This document shows positions 549 through 11,922 of a DNA stretch of 64,000 nucleotides, piece by piece. This stretch comes from Prochlorococcus sp. scB245a_519A13 (GTDB lineage: Bacteria > Cyanobacteriota > Cyanobacteriia > PCC-6307 > Cyanobiaceae): positions 62,001 through 126,000 of the forward strand of contig JFNH01000118.1 of assembly GCA_000634415.1 (NCBI GenBank). The letters are read 5' to 3'. The notes below the pieces were generated by a model. That model did not search any database, had not been told where the DNA came from, and saw nothing but the letters and a program-made list of their open reading frames with translations. The translations under genes and the position numbers were made by a program. The stretch's first letter is position 1, and every line of letters starts with the position of its first letter.

Positions 549-2249
549 TTATTTTGGGGTACCAAAACGCCAAACAAGACTAACATCCAAGGTATTTGCG
601 TCAAGATTCCCTTCTTTAGAAATCACTTTTCCCATGCCAGTTTGAAGGCTGAAGTCGTCATTTAGATTGAACTCTATTCCAATACTAGGTTTGTATATTA
701 AGGCGCTACCGCTATCGACGCCTCCTCCCCCTCCAGCACCTATTAGCATTTCTCCATAAAGCTGCCAATTCTTCCATCTAGGTCCGAGAACGCCTACCCC
801 CCAGTGCCCCTCTGAATAGCCACCCGCTCCTCCTTCATACGCACTTAATCCTTGTCCAGTAAGGTACCACCAATCTCCGGCCATCCAGTCAAGTTTACCT
901 CCCAACAGTTGCATATCGCGTGGGGAGCTATTCTTACGTTGTGCATCAAAATACCATTGGTATGCGGGGCGAAAACGCCATTTATTAATTTGTATAAGGT
1001 CTGTTTCCGTTAAGGGTGCTCCTTTTTGATCCCGAGCATAATTTTGCATTACATATGCCAAATTAAACCCTACATATGGGGTGTCAAAATTGCCATCTGG
1101 GGCGGTGAGATAACCGCCGTCAACAATCATATTTAGATTAGGAAAGAGTTGGTATTCCAAACCTAGATTTGCTCGAGCAACAAATCCCCCGCCCGTTTTC
1201 ACGTCTCCGCCTCCGGCACCGCCAATGGTTAAAGCCGGGAGGATGGCCAGACGATCGTCTTTGGTTAGTGGCAAGCGATAGCCTATCCCTCCTAAAAGTT
1301 CGGCGTACCCGCCTACACCACCTGTCATAGCACCGGCAGTTTCAAAGGTGGCAAACCAGTTTCTATCAAGAAAATAAGAATAATCTACACCGACTATCTC
1401 AATTGAATCATTAAGAGATCTACCGGAGTTTGTTTTGCTGTGGCTGGAAGGATAATAAGCTCGAACACGAGCAGCTAGGTGCGATCGATGGAGGCTCACA
1501 TTGTTTAAGTCGGCTCCGAAGTAATCAGCATCAGTCAGTCCATCAATTTTCCAATTGAGTGACGGTGCGGTGAAAGGAATATCCAGTGAAAGAGCTATTG
1601 CATCGCTAAAAATATCTCCATTTGGGAAGTCTACGTAGGAATAATTTAGCCCCAGCGAGCTCCAGCTAAAGTCGTACTTGAGACCGATATGGGGCCGGAT
1701 CATTAATCCTCCTCCTTGCGCCGCGGCACCGCCACCCCCAGCGCCTACGTAGCCTCCGGCATCGAGAATCCAATTATCAAATAATCGATGTTCCATACCC
1801 AAGGTGTAGCCACCAGTAAAGAACCCCCCACGACGTCCAGTTGCAGCACCGTATAGATTTATACCGCCGTAAAGCCAGGAGTTAAGTCGTTCGTAAGCCC
1901 CTATACTGTACAAACCCATGAACTCGCCAGAATCTGGCATTTTGATTTCTTCAAATGAAAAACGCAACATTCGATTGCGCCAAAGTGAAGACTCAATCTT
2001 GGAGGATTTTGATTTTGACTCTGAAAATTCATCTAATGAAAAACTTTCTTTATTTACATTTTCAAAATAATTTTCATCCCCTTTGTAAGATTTCCAGATA
2101 ATCTTTTTCAACGTTTTAGATTTATTTTCCTCCACCTTTTTCCAATTTAAAGTATTTATCCCAGAAGAATTTTCTTTTATTTTTTCTGCAAAGACTCCAA
2201 GAAAATTTAAGAAATTACTAAATAAAAATATATAAAAAATCAACTTCAT
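549..2249 (-). CDS. Gly-rich triple-repeat putative outer-membrane beta-barrel protein
   Basis: The 566-residue product starts with a signal peptide (about residues 1-21, MKLIFYIFLFSNFLNFLGVFA). A Lys/Ser/Glu-rich linker follows (about 22-100), then alternating aromatic/polar beta strands typical of a barrel, ending in W-R-F near the C-terminus. Three related units of about 110 residues are visible (about 115-223, 287-399, 449-562). Each has a Gly run (GAGGGG, GGAGGG, GAGGGGG) followed by an IGLEY/LGLEY/IGIEF-type strand and a GN/GD-D turn. The barrel part is close to 50% GC in several lines, while the signal and linker are as AT-rich as the neighbours. I infer an outer-membrane protein acquired by transfer and joined to a local export signal. 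I do not recognise a named family. Confidence 0.75.
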   Translation of the reverse strand: MKLIFYIFLFSNFLNFLGVFAEKIKENSSGINTLNWKKVEENKSKTLKKIIWKSYKGDENYFENVNKESFSLDEFSESKSKSSKIESSLWRNRMLRFSFEEIKMPDSGEFMGLYSIGAYERLNSWLYGGINLYGAATGRRGGFFTGGYTLGMEHRLFDNWILDAGGYVGAGGGGAAAQGGGLMIRPHIGLKYDFSWSSLGLNYSYVDFPNGDIFSDAIALSLDIPFTAPSLNWKIDGLTDADYFGADLNNVSLHRSHLAARVRAYYPSSHSKTNSGRSLNDSIEIVGVDYSYFLDRNWFATFETAGAMTGGVGGYAELLGGIGYRLPLTKDDRLAILPALTIGGAGGGDVKTGGGFVARANLGLEYQLFPNLNMIVDGGYLTAPDGNFDTPYVGFNLAYVMQNYARDQKGAPLTETDLIQINKWRFRPAYQWYFDAQRKNSSPRDMQLLGGKLDWMAGDWWYLTGQGLSAYEGGAGGYSEGHWGVGVLGPRWKNWQLYGEMLIGAGGGGGVDSGSALIYKPSIGIEFNLNDDFSLQTGMGKVISKEGNLDANTLDVSLVWRFGTPK

Positions 2250-3956: not shown

Positions 3957-4030
3957 AAAACCTCCTATATCTCTACTTCTTAATTATCCTCCTATTCAAT
4001 TGAAATTAATAGAGTATTAATACCCGAGTA

Positions 4031-4177
4031 ATAGTGCTTTGTGGTTGTCGCGACTATCTTTCCCCATTCAGTAGGAGTAGAAATAAATCAGGAGTCAAAA
4101 GCACTTCATCGACTTTGTGGACAACGAGGTGCAGAAGACTCGAAGAGGGCAAATATATGCCCTCTTATTTTATTTTT
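4031..4177 (+). ncRNA. Candidate short structured transcript ending at an intrinsic terminator
   Basis: A strong plus-strand terminator (4143-4177) must serve a plus-strand transcript, yet no convincing gene lies upstream. AGTGCTTT at 4033-4040 can pair with AAAGCACT at 4098-4105, closing a domain of about 57 bases, and GTTGTC/GACAAC offers another pairing. The only ORF here (GTG at 4041, 67 codons) reads straight through the terminator stem and into the tRNA-Ser-like fragment, so it looks non-coding. An sRNA, or a short mRNA remnant, fits better. No known RNA family was recognised and the 5' end is uncertain. Confidence 0.35.
4143..4177 (+). terminator. Rho-independent terminator
   Basis: AAGAGGGCA (4143-4151) pairs perfectly with TGCCCTCTT (4158-4166) around a 6-base AATATA loop, followed by ATTTTATTTTT. 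A nine-pair GC-containing stem with a T-rich tail is a classic intrinsic terminator on the plus strand. The minus-strand side lacks a T tract, so it is probably unidirectional. Confidence 0.8.
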
Positions 4178-4200
4178 GGGATTTCTAGAAACTATTTTTA

Positions 4201-4222
4201 ACGGAGAGGGTGGAATACGAAT
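4201..4222 (-). repeat. Decayed copy of the tRNA-Ser 3' end (possible att remnant)
   Basis: Read on the minus strand, TTCGTATTCCACCCTCTCCGT matches the T-loop and acceptor end of the tRNA-Ser at 5385-5469 (TTCGAATCCCACCCTCTCCGT) at 19 of 21 positions, including all of ACCCTCTCCG. It lies in the same orientation as the tRNA, 1.2 kb beyond its 3' end. There is no tRNA body attached. A duplicated tRNA 3' end at the far side of inserted DNA is the usual footprint of tRNA-targeted integration. Confidence 0.65.
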
Positions 4223-4279
4223 TCAACCTTATAGAACACTGTAGAACAAACCTGAACAGGTTTTTCATATCCTAAATTC

Positions 4280-4305
4280 AATTACCACCAACAAACCCGC
4301 CAACA
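4280..4305. repeat. Left copy of the CCGCCAAC-type direct repeat
   Basis: The 26 bases AATTACCACCAACAAACCCG... match the copy at 5227-5252 at 25 of 26 positions in direct orientation. The unit itself is built of two near-copies of ACC(A/C)(C/G)CCAACA. The two copies enclose the 2OG-Fe(II) oxygenase gene and sit just inside the tRNA-derived repeat pair. Confidence 0.8.
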
Positions 4306-4323
4306 AGAAAATAGTTAACAGAA

Positions 4324-4983
4324 TTATTTGACCTTGGGAAAAGTTCTATTTAATTTAAAATTAAAGGAAAGACTTATCCTTTCTTCATCAGATAAATTAA
4401 TCTCAACTGCGTGAGGTACCCAGGCAGGAAAAACAACTAGCATATTTTCTTTTGGTGAAATTGTATTTATGGGATAATCATACCCTTGCATTTTGTAGCC
4501 TTCTTTGAAATGCCCCATATATTCTGTGGAGATAAAGTCAGCTTCATTAAAATTCCTATAAAAAAGAAATCTCCCTCCTTTCATTTCTTTTGGCACCTTA
4601 ATAAAAAACACACCGGAATACGTTGCGCCTGAATGAGTGTGAGGTGTATTAGAAGAACCTTTCCCACTTATATTTATCCAAAAATTTGTTAGCTGAAGGT
4701 CACCTTGTCTACTGATTTGATGAATTGCATTAACGGCATTAATAATTTGCTTTAATAATTGATTAGTTCCTGGAAGATTATTTAAATTTCTTATATCTTT
4801 TGAATGATATCCCTGAAAACCAGAATTACTTTTAATAACACCATCTTTATCATTTTCTCTTATCAAATAAGCCTCTTTTTGTAATTGCTCAATATTTTCA
4901 TTTAGTTCAGCACTCCAAAACTGAGTTGGGAATAAAAAACCAGGTTTAATTTGAATTTTCATACAAAAAAAGTTATTAATCAT
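4324..4983 (-). CDS. Putative 2OG-Fe(II) oxygenase (TIGR02466/2OG-FeII_Oxy_5 type)
   Basis: The 219-residue protein opens with the PGFLFPTQFWSAEL pattern of this family. It has the iron-binding core: HTHSGATYSGVFFIKVP supplies the first histidines, PAWVPHAVEINLSDEERISLSFNF supplies the distal His, and a nearby Arg is positioned to hold 2-oxoglutarate. Such enzymes hydroxylate or otherwise oxidise an unidentified substrate using Fe(II), O2 and 2-oxoglutarate. The ORF starts at 4983, but the second Met (residue 8, MKIQIKPG) fits family starts better. The gene is the only cargo between the nested direct repeats and is probably a transferred accessory gene. Confidence 0.78.
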   Translation of the reverse strand: MINNFFCMKIQIKPGFLFPTQFWSAELNENIEQLQKEAYLIRENDKDGVIKSNSGFQGYHSKDIRNLNNLPGTNQLLKQIINAVNAIHQISRQGDLQLTNFWINISGKGSSNTPHTHSGATYSGVFFIKVPKEMKGGRFLFYRNFNEADFISTEYMGHFKEGYKMQGYDYPINTISPKENMLVVFPAWVPHAVEINLSDEERISLSFNFKLNRTFPKVK

Positions 4984-5207
4984 TTCATAACTTTAAAATA
5001 AAAAAATTTTTAAAAATTATCCACTTTAAAAGATTACTATCTTCTCTTTTTGAAATGTTCTAAGTACAAATTAGAGTAATAAACTAATAATAAAAAGCAA
5101 TAGTAAAAAAGTATTTAAATAGTTTAAATTATTTTTTAATATTTATTTCTCTCACATCTACCGTCAAAAATTAGAATTAAAAATTTCAGATTTAACTTTA
5201 ATAAGTA

Positions 5208-5254
5208 ACCCGCCAACAGCTTTTTAAATTACCGCCAACAAACCCGCCAACAGC
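5208..5254. repeat. Right cluster of CCGCCAAC-type direct repeats
   Basis: ACCCGCCAACAGC occurs at 5208-5220 and again within 5242-5254, and ACCGCCAACA occurs at 5231-5240. The block 5227-5252 is the direct partner of 4280-4305 (25 of 26 identical). These GC-containing units stand out in an otherwise nearly pure A/T spacer. Confidence 0.8.
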
Positions 5255-5349
5255 AAGTATTCTTTCAGGTTAAATTTAAGAACTAAATTTAAATTTGAAT
5301 AGAGGCGAAATTAATTTATAACTATAAATACAGGGGATTTTTAATAAAT

Positions 5350-5372
5350 TCATCGTCCGTGAAATGGGACGA
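5350..5372. terminator. Hairpin just beyond the tRNA-Ser 3' end
   Basis: ATCGTCC and GGACGAT form a perfect 7-bp stem with a 9-base loop. Read on the minus strand it lies 12 bases after the tRNA and could stop or process the tRNA transcript, but the following tract (GAATTTATT) is only weakly T-rich. It might equally be part of an integration site. Confidence 0.4.
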
Positions 5373-5384
5373 TTTGAAATCGTA

Positions 5385-5469
5385 CGGAGAGGGTGGGATT
5401 CGAACCCACGAATAGTTACCTATTAAACGATTTCGAGTCGTTCGCTTTCGACCACTCAGCCACCTCTCC
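5385..5469 (-). tRNA. tRNA-Ser (anticodon CGA)
   Basis: On the minus strand the 85-base sequence begins GGAGAGGTGGCTGAGTGG, has an anticodon loop CT-CGA-AA closed by AACGA/TCGTT, a long variable arm as in class II tRNAs, the T arm GTGGGTTCGAATCCCAC, and ends CCTCTCC plus discriminator G. The acceptor stem pairs fully. CCA is not encoded. It follows futA on the same strand and its 3' end is partly duplicated at 4201-4222. Confidence 0.95.
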
Positions 5470-9764: not shown

Positions 9765-10418
9765 TTATTTCAATAAACTTAAATCCTCGAAAACAAACTT
9801 TTGTATTTCTTCTTCTTGATTTTGGTTTAAATATTTTATTGATCTCGAATTTAAAATCCAATAATCTTTTTTACCTATATTTATAAATTCATCTTTGTAT
9901 TCAATTTTTTGAGAATTTGATTCTAGGGTTTTTGGATTAATTTGTTGACTAGTATATTTCTTACTAAGAAAACCAACTCCAGTATCAAAAAATTCCTCAA
10001 CAAAAATCTCAATAATTGTTCCATGAATTTTTCTATAAACCATATTAATACAATCATCTTTAACCCTATATTTATCTCCTTCATTTCTCCCAGAAACATT
10101 CATTTCAATCCCATTTTCAGAACTTTTAAGTAAATTAAAATTATTTTCTGAATGAACTGAATTAAATTCTCTTTTTACCCTGTGAATACACACTTCAAAC
10201 AATTGAGAAGCAATACTTTTCTTTATGTTTTCTTCATCTATATTTTTAATCTCAGGTTTAAAGTCTTCACCTAATAAGAACTCACCCTCATAAGAATTAT
10301 CTTCAAATAAATAAGTACACTTGCCTTTATAGCCTTTGAAATCAGTATTCCATGTATATCTTTTTTCATAAGCATTTTTAAAAATATCTTTGCAACTCTG
10401 TTCTTTTAAATTTTTCAT
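9765..10418 (-). CDS. DUF3386 family protein
   Basis: The 217-residue product has the family's opening AYEKRYTWNTDFKGYKGKCTY, then beta-rich segments (SYEGEFLLGEDFKPEI), IASQLFEVCIHRVKREF, and a C-terminal DYWILNSRSIKYL strand. DUF3386 proteins occur in cyanobacteria and plastid-bearing eukaryotes and have no assigned function. No signal peptide is visible. It reads toward the 81-aa gene and away from isiB's terminator side. Confidence 0.72.
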   Translation of the reverse strand: MKNLKEQSCKDIFKNAYEKRYTWNTDFKGYKGKCTYLFEDNSYEGEFLLGEDFKPEIKNIDEENIKKSIASQLFEVCIHRVKREFNSVHSENNFNLLKSSENGIEMNVSGRNEGDKYRVKDDCINMVYRKIHGTIIEIFVEEFFDTGVGFLSKKYTSQQINPKTLESNSQKIEYKDEFINIGKKDYWILNSRSIKYLNQNQEEEIQKFVFEDLSLLK

Positions 10419-10522
10419 TATTTTTAAGATTTACAAGCAATCATACAAAAAGGCATCTCTAATTGGGATAGAAAGTTTTAATTTATTAAATTGACTATTT
10501 TTTTAGGTTTTTTGTCAAAAAT

Positions 10523-11047
10523 TTAAGCCAAAGAGGGGATTTCACCTTTAAGCTGAGAAGCCCATGCCTCAAGACGCGAATCGGTCAAATCAGATTCACT
10601 ATCCTCATCAAGAGGTAATCCACAAAAGCTTTCTCCAATAACACTTTTAGACTCATCGAATGTATAAGAGGATTTATCTACGTAACCAACCATTTCGGCA
10701 CCTGCCTTTGTGAAGTAGCTATGAAGTTCTTCCATTGCATCACAATAGTTTTCTGTATATGTGGAAGAGTCTCCTAAACCAAAAATTGCGACTTTTTTTC
10801 CTGATAAACTTAGTTCACCAATATCCTCTAAGATTGAATCCCATGCAGTTCCAGATCTTTCTTCATCGGCACCAGTATTCCAAGTAGGTATCCCGCAGAT
10901 AATTCCATCAAGGCCTTCAAATTCTGAAAGATCATCCACATCGGATACATCTTTAGGTGCTTCTGCTGAAGAGATAAAGTTGTGAAGACGATCTGCTACG
11001 TCTTCGGTTTTTCCAGTTGTAGTTGCGTAATAAATTCCTACAGTCAT
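10523..11047 (-). CDS. isiB: Flavodoxin (long-chain)
   Basis: The 174-residue protein has all FMN sites of a cyanobacterial long-chain flavodoxin: the phosphate loop TTTGKTEDVAD near the N-terminus, the Trp loop IPTWNTGADEE, and the Tyr loop GLGDSSTYTENYCDAM. It replaces ferredoxin as the soluble electron carrier of photosystem I when iron is scarce. The 140-base spacer to the divergent peroxiredoxin-like gene should contain its promoter; I could not identify a convincing Fur box there. Confidence 0.95.
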   Translation of the reverse strand: MTVGIYYATTTGKTEDVADRLHNFISSAEAPKDVSDVDDLSEFEGLDGIICGIPTWNTGADEERSGTAWDSILEDIGELSLSGKKVAIFGLGDSSTYTENYCDAMEELHSYFTKAGAEMVGYVDKSSYTFDESKSVIGESFCGLPLDEDSESDLTDSRLEAWASQLKGEIPSLA

Positions 11048-11187
11048 AACTTCAAAATGTTTACATTAAAATAATAAAATCTAAAAACGTTAAATTAATT
11101 TCTTTAAAAACTTTTTCATGTAAAATTTTATACTAATTAAGGTAAGAAAATTTTTTTGAGAATAATTTATTAAAAATTTAAAAGATC

Positions 11188-11922
11188 GTGACTGACAAAT
11201 TTCAAAATGATATTAAAAATCTTATTGAAGAATTCAACTTTAATGGGTATAAAAAGTTCAAATTAATTATTTTATTTGGTTTATTAGGAGATTTTGATAG
11301 CTTTGAATATGCAATAAATTTAAAAAGTTTTGTCGATAAAAATCAAGATCAAAATTTAGATATTTTTGCAATTGCTATTGGGAACGAAAATGGGAAAGAA
11401 AAATTCTGCAAATTTACTGGCTTTCACAAAGAAAATTTAATAGTTGTTTCTGATAATCAAATCCATAATAATCTAAAAGTCTCAAAAGGATTAGATATTG
11501 GTTTAGGAGGTTGGATTAATATGCTTTTGATGTTATCAGGGATAAATTCTTTTAAAACAATTAAAGAAGTTATTAGAGGTTATACCGGCGACCGAAAAGC
11601 AGAACAAATCTATTCAGAATTTGACAAAATTGATGTTTTAAAATTTTTAAAATTTTCGGGTAATTCTTTTAAAAAGGTTTTCGGGGATGGTTACTTGAGA
11701 CCATTTGAATTAGCAACATTTAGATTAAATAATATGAATGAAATAATTCAAAATTGGAGTGATTATATACTTAATGAAGAATACCTTCCTCAAAGAGGGG
11801 CTTCTTTTCTATTGAATAATAAAAACCAAATTATTTATAAATTTTGCTCAAACGATGTGCTTGGATATTCATCAAACATGAGGGATCCCTTAGGATTTTT
11901 GACTGATTTAATTAAAGAATAG
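11188..11922 (+). CDS. AhpC/TSA-like (peroxiredoxin-like) family protein
   Basis: The 244-residue protein looks like a thioredoxin-fold AhpC/TSA-type relative: an early strand KLIILFGLLGDFDSFEYAINL, a second DIFAIAIGNENGKEKFCKFTG, and a late RGASFLLNNKNQIIYKF strand followed by GYSSNMRDPLGFL. The usual peroxidatic Cys motif (TxxC near the N-terminus) is absent, so peroxidase activity is doubtful. Start is GTG at 11188. It reads away from isiB and is followed 16 bases later by the SemiSWEET gene, likely one transcript. Confidence 0.55.
   Translation: MTDKFQNDIKNLIEEFNFNGYKKFKLIILFGLLGDFDSFEYAINLKSFVDKNQDQNLDIFAIAIGNENGKEKFCKFTGFHKENLIVVSDNQIHNNLKVSKGLDIGLGGWINMLLMLSGINSFKTIKEVIRGYTGDRKAEQIYSEFDKIDVLKFLKFSGNSFKKVFGDGYLRPFELATFRLNNMNEIIQNWSDYILNEEYLPQRGASFLLNNKNQIIYKFCSNDVLGYSSNMRDPLGFLTDLIKE

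Follow-up and report, generated by a model that had tools for sequence, protein, structure and literature searches.

In Prochlorococcus, small gene packages that lack an integrase stand in single file at the end of a tRNA-Ser gene. The 1,183-bp insert at positions 4202-5384 of our window, at the 3' end of tRNA-Ser(CGA), is very probably a non-autonomous cassette of the CIME or microCIME kind, with ends that would provide a core site and arm-type sites for an integrase that comes from another element. The window is the whole 64-kb stretch of DNA that was analysed (G000:C118:62001-126000); it comes from a Prochlorococcus-type genome that is 67% complete. An initial annotation made from the sequence had described the locus as a tiny cargo element without an integrase, and this description is supported by the single gene, the conserved ends and the empty sites that we find in relatives. 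The features of the element are collected in Table 1.

Table 1. Features of the window element and its target tRNA (positions in the window)
Feature	Position	Strand	Remarks
Partial duplicate of the tRNA-Ser(CGA) 3' end	4201-4221		19/21 bases
Left core site CGGAGAGGGTG (attL, predicted)	4202-4212		11 bp common to all modules and the tRNA 3' end
Three direct repeats AGAACA, AGAACA, TGAACA, 10-bp spacing	4233-4258		present in left ends of family A irrespective of cargo
Left iteron pair: CCACCAACA (4285-4293), CCGCCAACA (4297-4305)	4280-4305		proposed arm-type integrase sites, ~83 bp from the core
2OG-Fe(II) oxygenase, 219 aa	4324-4983	-	PF13759 (E 4e-20), TIGR02466
Conserved family A right end	5200-5384		terminal palindrome ACGATTTGAAATCGT (5369-5383) adjoins the core
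Right iterons: CCGCCAAC at 5210-5217, 5232-5239 and 5244-5251	5207-5252		proposed arm-type sites, 130-180 bp from the core
Right core site (attR, predicted)	5385-5395		within the intact tRNA
Intact tRNA-Ser(CGA)	5385-5469	minus	integration target, restored at the right junction

The 3' end of the tRNA gene (ACGGAGAGGGTGGGATTCGAA, 5384-5404) recurs at the left border of the insert in the same orientation and with two mismatches, as the initial annotation had noticed; the order that it gave, tRNA fragment, repeat, oxygenase, repeat, tRNA, agrees with the coordinates. There is no third match to ACGGAGAGGGTGGGATTCGAA in the 64-kb window at up to three mismatches, and none in 100 dinucleotide shuffles. 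In one relative (G037), the stretch that precedes the tRNA agrees with 80 of the 81 bases at window positions 4121-4201 and abuts the intact tRNA directly, while futA, beyond the tRNA, is 99.6% identical to that of the window. The left flank is joined straight to the tRNA in 16 of the 50 distinct tRNA-Ser loci tested. From the G037 junction and these empty loci it follows that the 1,183 bp of the window are absent from relatives. The initial annotation had read the locus as an integration that restores the tRNA on one side and leaves a copy on the other, and had suggested a search for strains that lack 4223-5384 and keep a single tRNA 3' end: such strains do exist, and their empty sites support its reading. 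Empty and filled sites are both present among close relatives, and two genomes (G248 and G106) carry partial derivatives from which the left end and the oxygenase are gone.

The part of the tRNA copy that the window element has in common with other modules is the 11-bp CGGAGAGGGTG. This 11-mer occurs just 31 times in 22 near-complete genomes, nearly always at tRNA-Ser or a few kb away on its 3' side and in the same orientation; among the modules of the fetched loci it was never found in the opposite orientation. An Rfam search of the region brought no family other than tRNA above threshold, and a weak match to PsrR1 (E 0.86) at 5238-5320 was treated as chance.

Two further observations concern the flanks of the target. 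The intergenic stretch at 4015-4185 (+) is kept at 93-97% in empty-site relatives, folds better than its shuffles (z -2.4) and ends in a terminator-like hairpin and a T run; it is a candidate small RNA that is absent from Rfam. In G107 (L135 202-3085), two complete copies of tRNA-Ser(CGA) enclose a truncated futA, as if a stretch with the whole target had been duplicated.

The window element has company. Scanning the fetched loci, we obtained 51 stretches between successive cores at tRNA-Ser(CGA), from 203 bp to 7.3 kb in length, some of them mis-bounded (for example G042_5990 and also G107_962, which starts at a complete copy of the tRNA); 29 of 74 genomes examined have one or more additional exact cores upstream of the tRNA. 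These counts describe our sample only, because it was partly chosen for similarity to the window. The locus forms an accretion array of some 50 modules, whose ends sort into five or more paired families. A given type of left end goes together with a given type of right end, and within one family the ends are alike and the cargo is different. Family A modules carry the oxygenase (window, G094), a 214-aa secreted protein (G022) or a 283-aa porin-like protein (G153, G209, G109), and the family A right end recurs in other genomes next to different cargo at 74-88% identity. Family B modules hold no cargo, small membrane proteins or an HNH and HSDR_N-like pair; family C modules hold none, a C5 DNA methylase with a type II restriction enzyme, or a DnaB-like helicase with TPR proteins; family F modules hold none or a polysaccharide lyase; and D-like modules carry TPR proteins, a type I restriction-modification system or a type III system. 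In ten modules, 203-281 bp long, there is nothing but the two ends, and no ORF exceeds 41 aa. One B-family element with a DUF805-like gene is found at tRNA-Ser(CGA) in G031 (830 bp) and at tRNA-Ser(TGA), with core ACGGAGGGGGTG, in G060 (834 bp). Short matches to the right end elsewhere in many genomes belong to no common RNA family and were taken as AT-rich chance matches.

Restriction-modification systems of types I, II and III occur, complete or nearly so, as the cargo of single modules at L200, L201, L124, L151 and L127. A second set of small modules with the same iteron types stands at tRNA-Ser(TGA), with core ACGGAGGGGGTG (L302-L306).

Just inside the core lies a second repeat. The 26-mer AATTACCGCCAACAAACCCGCCAACA at 5227-5252 has a second copy at 4280-4305 with one mismatch, exactly the pair reported by the initial annotation; the 64-kb window contains no further match, 100 shuffles contain none, and the CCGCCAAC-type pair is found nowhere else in the source genome. 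The "26-base repeat" resolves into two 12-bp units in tandem (CCRCCAACA, spaced 12 bp); a third such unit lies at 5210-5217. In the other families the same place is taken by a tandem pair that differs in sequence: CCCCCAACATTT in B, CCACCAACACAT in C, CCCTGACACAT in D and TTTTACATGTGT in E. A tandem match of at least 10/11 is seen at lag 12 in 9 of 32 de-duplicated left ends, versus 0.16% in shuffles, and at lag 11 in 3 of 32, versus 0.23%. Whatever the sequence of the iteron, the left pair mostly starts 79-84 bp from the start of the core (~70 bp in family E).

The general iteron form CCNCCAACA-N3-CCNCCAACA was found at 106 sites, which are spread over 58 of 266 genomes; the reversed control pattern was found at none. 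Eighteen of the 106 are unplaced, with no tRNA-Ser located on their contig. All of the other 88 lie on the 3' side of tRNA-Ser and in one orientation, at distances of 105 bp to 12.6 kb (37 of them at 105-180 bp), and those that are away from tRNA-Ser(CGA) lie at tRNA-Ser(TGA), where the core is ACGGAGGGGGTG. A repeat scattered with no link to tRNA, which the initial annotation had named as evidence against its own reading, is thus not what we observe. This geometry strongly suggests that the iterons are recognition signals, and the three 10-bp-spaced repeats of the left end may function as an excisionase or accessory site. Attachment sites of the lambda type (attP) similarly combine a core site with tandem arm-type sites that lie some tens of base pairs to either side of it. 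Unlike these, the proposed arm sites here are direct repeats of 11-12 bp that come in several sequence classes for one core.

The oxygenase is the single clear gene inside the insert. It has homologues in 36 of 266 genomes and at most 36% identity to cyanophage proteins, and it is found on either side of a rhomboid module, the stack order varying between genomes. Elsewhere in the window, a predicted surface protein gene at 549-2249 (-) has a chimeric look: G+C content is 47% in 549-2000 and 24% in the 5' part, with a window mean of 29%. The N-terminal sequence of its product resembles ORFs adjoining tRNA-Ser in G042 and G202, whose remainders look different, a pattern that suggests domain swapping.

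Neither a PF00589 match nor a BLAST match to any of four integrase types was found in the window element, in keeping with the earlier statement that it lacks an integrase of its own, and none of the integrase-less modules matches these four types. Near tRNA-Ser, PF00589 matches are confined to three genomes. The elements in G202 (5,016 bp) and G104 (5,476 bp) have E-type ends and encode a serine resolvase as well as an integrase of 409 aa with an Arm-DNA-bind_3 domain; an AlpA-like protein (regulator) was identified in the G104 element, which directly adjoins a family B right end. The left ends of E type share 70-75% identity over 93-95 nt and have short identical iterons. In a scan of GTDB genomes, the 409-aa integrase had only the two Prochlorococcus copies and a remote clostridial match. 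The third element, in G081 (9,331 bp), encodes a 444-aa integrase, an excisionase-like protein and a resolvase. Its ends are of D type, with 75% (left, 106 nt) and 81% (right, 144 nt) identity to those of an integrase-less D module in G148. Integrase-bearing members that use the same core site are therefore present in two families (D and E). No element that combines an integrase with ends of family A, B or C turned up, which counts against our reading. The initial annotation had suggested looking for its repeat at the ends of islands beside integrase genes; the D- and E-type integrase elements share end types with modules, and none has the ends of family A.

In the mechanism that we propose, a tyrosine integrase would recombine the 11-bp core in the tRNA-Ser(CGA) 3' end with the same core on a circular cassette, and the insertion would rebuild the tRNA on the right and leave a tRNA fragment on the left. 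Such rebuilding at each insertion would explain why modules stack in one orientation. The cassette ends would make up a complete recombination site, in which the core is followed by the 10-bp-spaced repeats and then by two 12-bp iterons in tandem, at ~80 bp from the core in the left end and at 105-180 bp in the right end. The catalytic part of the integrase would read the core common to all families, while its N-terminal domain would read the family-specific iterons as arm sites; the difference in iteron sequence between families suggests that several integrases are involved. The enzyme would be supplied by another element, and D- and E-type integrase elements do occur at the site. Present-day excision of cassettes, supply of the integrase in trans and an effect of the oxygenase are inferred, and supply in cis or a complete loss of mobility would fit these data as well. 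An excised family A circle would carry the junction AAATCGTA-CGGAGAGGGTG-GAATACGA; scans of viral contigs for four end families and a right junction revealed no circular form or excision junction. The window copy itself may be decaying, because the left tRNA copy and one left iteron carry mismatches.

How else could this arrangement have come about? The direct repeats could belong to regulation, to replication or to an RNA within the intergenic region, and their resemblance to the tRNA could be incidental. The region is non-coding, and iterated 12-bp direct repeats can be replication iterons; however, exact empty sites contradict this explanation, as do the fixed distance between iteron and core in families with unrelated iterons, the strict linkage to tRNA-Ser 3' ends and the Rfam result, and we hold it to be next to impossible. 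It is unlikely that the element is a dead remnant, that is, an integrase-bearing element that lost its integrase and core genes by deletion and whose ends and one gene are now vertically inherited and immobile. The uniform lack of integrases in A, B and C modules would fit such a history, and so would the mismatches in the left core extension and one iteron and the partial derivatives in G248 and G106. Yet the ends are more constant than the cargo and are paired with several cargoes, one element type occurs at two different tRNA genes, the oxygenase changes sides relative to the rhomboid module, and empty and filled sites coexist in close relatives.

Another account is that the cassette moves only in cis, as a passenger when the composite with an adjacent integrase-bearing element excises (classical CIME accretion-mobilization). 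In streptococci, both CIMEs and microCIMEs without genes are known to stack with active elements (PMC5704250, PMC7563491), and the integrase element of G104 adjoins a family B right end. We nevertheless find this account rather doubtful: three integrase-bearing elements at the site stand against about 50 integrase-less modules, and most stacks have no integrase and yet keep the full left and right arm geometry. It is also conceivable, as a speculation that we rate as improbable, that families A-C have a resident helper in a ~389-aa tyrosine recombinase that is encoded between hemH and a CobO-like gene, far from tRNA (L322 2021-3190 (-) and equivalents). A related protein was matched in all 25 of 25 near-complete iteron-bearing genomes, and a distant 398-aa relative adjoins tRNA-Ser(TGA) in G150. 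However, a gene that is near-universal in Prochlorococcus cannot discriminate, the family-specific iterons suggest several integrases rather than this single helper, and we found no direct link between the recombinase and families A-C. The 398-aa protein (L302, reverse strand, 10002-11198) is encoded on the 5' side of tRNA-Ser(TGA), an unusual placement relative to the target, and has close copies in G180 and G160.

We return to the reading as a non-autonomous cassette and its relation to known systems. The term CIME covers elements without an integrase that are stacked at the end of a gene; classical CIMEs are 1.2-13 kb long and carry cargo, while the microCIMEs of Streptococcus salivarius are gene-free and 130-220 bp long (PMC5704250, PMC7563491). 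Like these, the window element has attL and attR as direct repeats at a gene 3' end, confirmed by empty sites, lacks recombination and transfer genes (the oxygenase is the sole ORF of note) and stacks in tandem with the target gene at one end; the gene-free modules of 203-281 bp are much like microCIMEs. By analogy, it would work like a CIME at a tRNA. CIMEs originate by deletion from an ICE or IME, and here the D and E integrase elements share ends with D and E modules; no family A parent was found. Unlike in CIMEs, the integrase-bearing partners (5-9 kb) show no recognised conjugation gene in the ORFs read and are far outnumbered by integrase-less modules, and many cargoes share a single end family, which is used at two tRNA-Ser genes.

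The initial annotation had linked the locus to tycheposons and had considered a satellite remnant. Tycheposons of Prochlorococcus, reportedly described by Hackl et al. in Cell in 2023, are said to target tRNA genes, to carry cargo genes and to remodel islands. The window element shares with them the genus, the tRNA target, cargo and island remodelling, but at 1,183 bp (~1.2 kb) it falls below the 4-200 kb given in the accessible part of the source (PMC10872708) and has neither a tyrosine recombinase nor hallmark genes, so the link does not hold by published criteria; the integrase-bearing elements at tRNA-Ser may themselves be tycheposons or related to them. Besides tycheposons, another integrase element, at tRNA-Phe or tRNA-Cys, is known in Prochlorococcus. 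Nor is there a sign of a viral satellite: the single ORF is the oxygenase, no packaging or capsid-interference gene is present, and the ends are absent from the scanned viral contigs. Integron gene cassettes have IntI in cis and attC, whereas the window locus has no integrase and the target is a tRNA 3' end.

Closer in appearance are the additive flexible genomic islands of marine bacteria, for which the accessible parts of the sources describe arrays of tRNA-end repeats (PMC7771536, PMC5217437, PMC10872708). As in these islands, cassettes are added at a tRNA and separated by recurring copies of its 3' end (the extra cores in 29 of 74 genomes), while end families, iterons, empty modules and integrase-bearing partners are not described in those parts. 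The ssrA arrays of Dehalococcoides, so far as the accessible text of PMC2764846 goes, likewise alternate cargo with copies of a 20-bp gene end, as many as 11 of them; traces of similarity are seen within the 150 bp that surround each copy, and some members carry recombinases. The arrays differ in their tmRNA target and reductive dehalogenase cargo, and their end architecture is not resolved in that text. Within the same partial scope, the literature on CIMEs, additive islands and Dehalococcoides contains no paired end families with fixed iteron geometry, no end family reused with many cargoes and no D/E-type integrase link at tRNA-Ser; an earlier description of such small elements is possible.

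Tentatively, we entertain the idea that the modules are a maintained non-autonomous cassette system of Prochlorococcus rather than leftovers. Bare ends of 203-281 bp would gain and exchange cargo, complete restriction-modification systems included, and integrases acting in trans would insert them at tRNA-Ser(CGA) or tRNA-Ser(TGA), the family iteron serving as the address for one integrase class and the core being common to all classes. If true, Prochlorococcus would have an equivalent of integron cassettes that is anchored at tRNA genes and lacks a resident platform.

The genomes of Prochlorococcus are very small, yet its pool of flexible genes is very large, and the movement of single genes has been hard to see. 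The end rules (an 11-bp core, tandem iterons of 11-12 bp at a fixed distance, paired families) delimit cassettes of less than 2 kb, gene-free ones among them, that gene-based integrase searches miss, and they yield testable predictions that pair each cassette with the integrase that moves it. By the same rules, tRNA-Ser(CGA) stands out as a site at which surface proteins, an oxygenase and restriction-modification systems are swapped. The arrangement illustrates in a well-defined way how Prochlorococcus exchanges single genes and defence systems.
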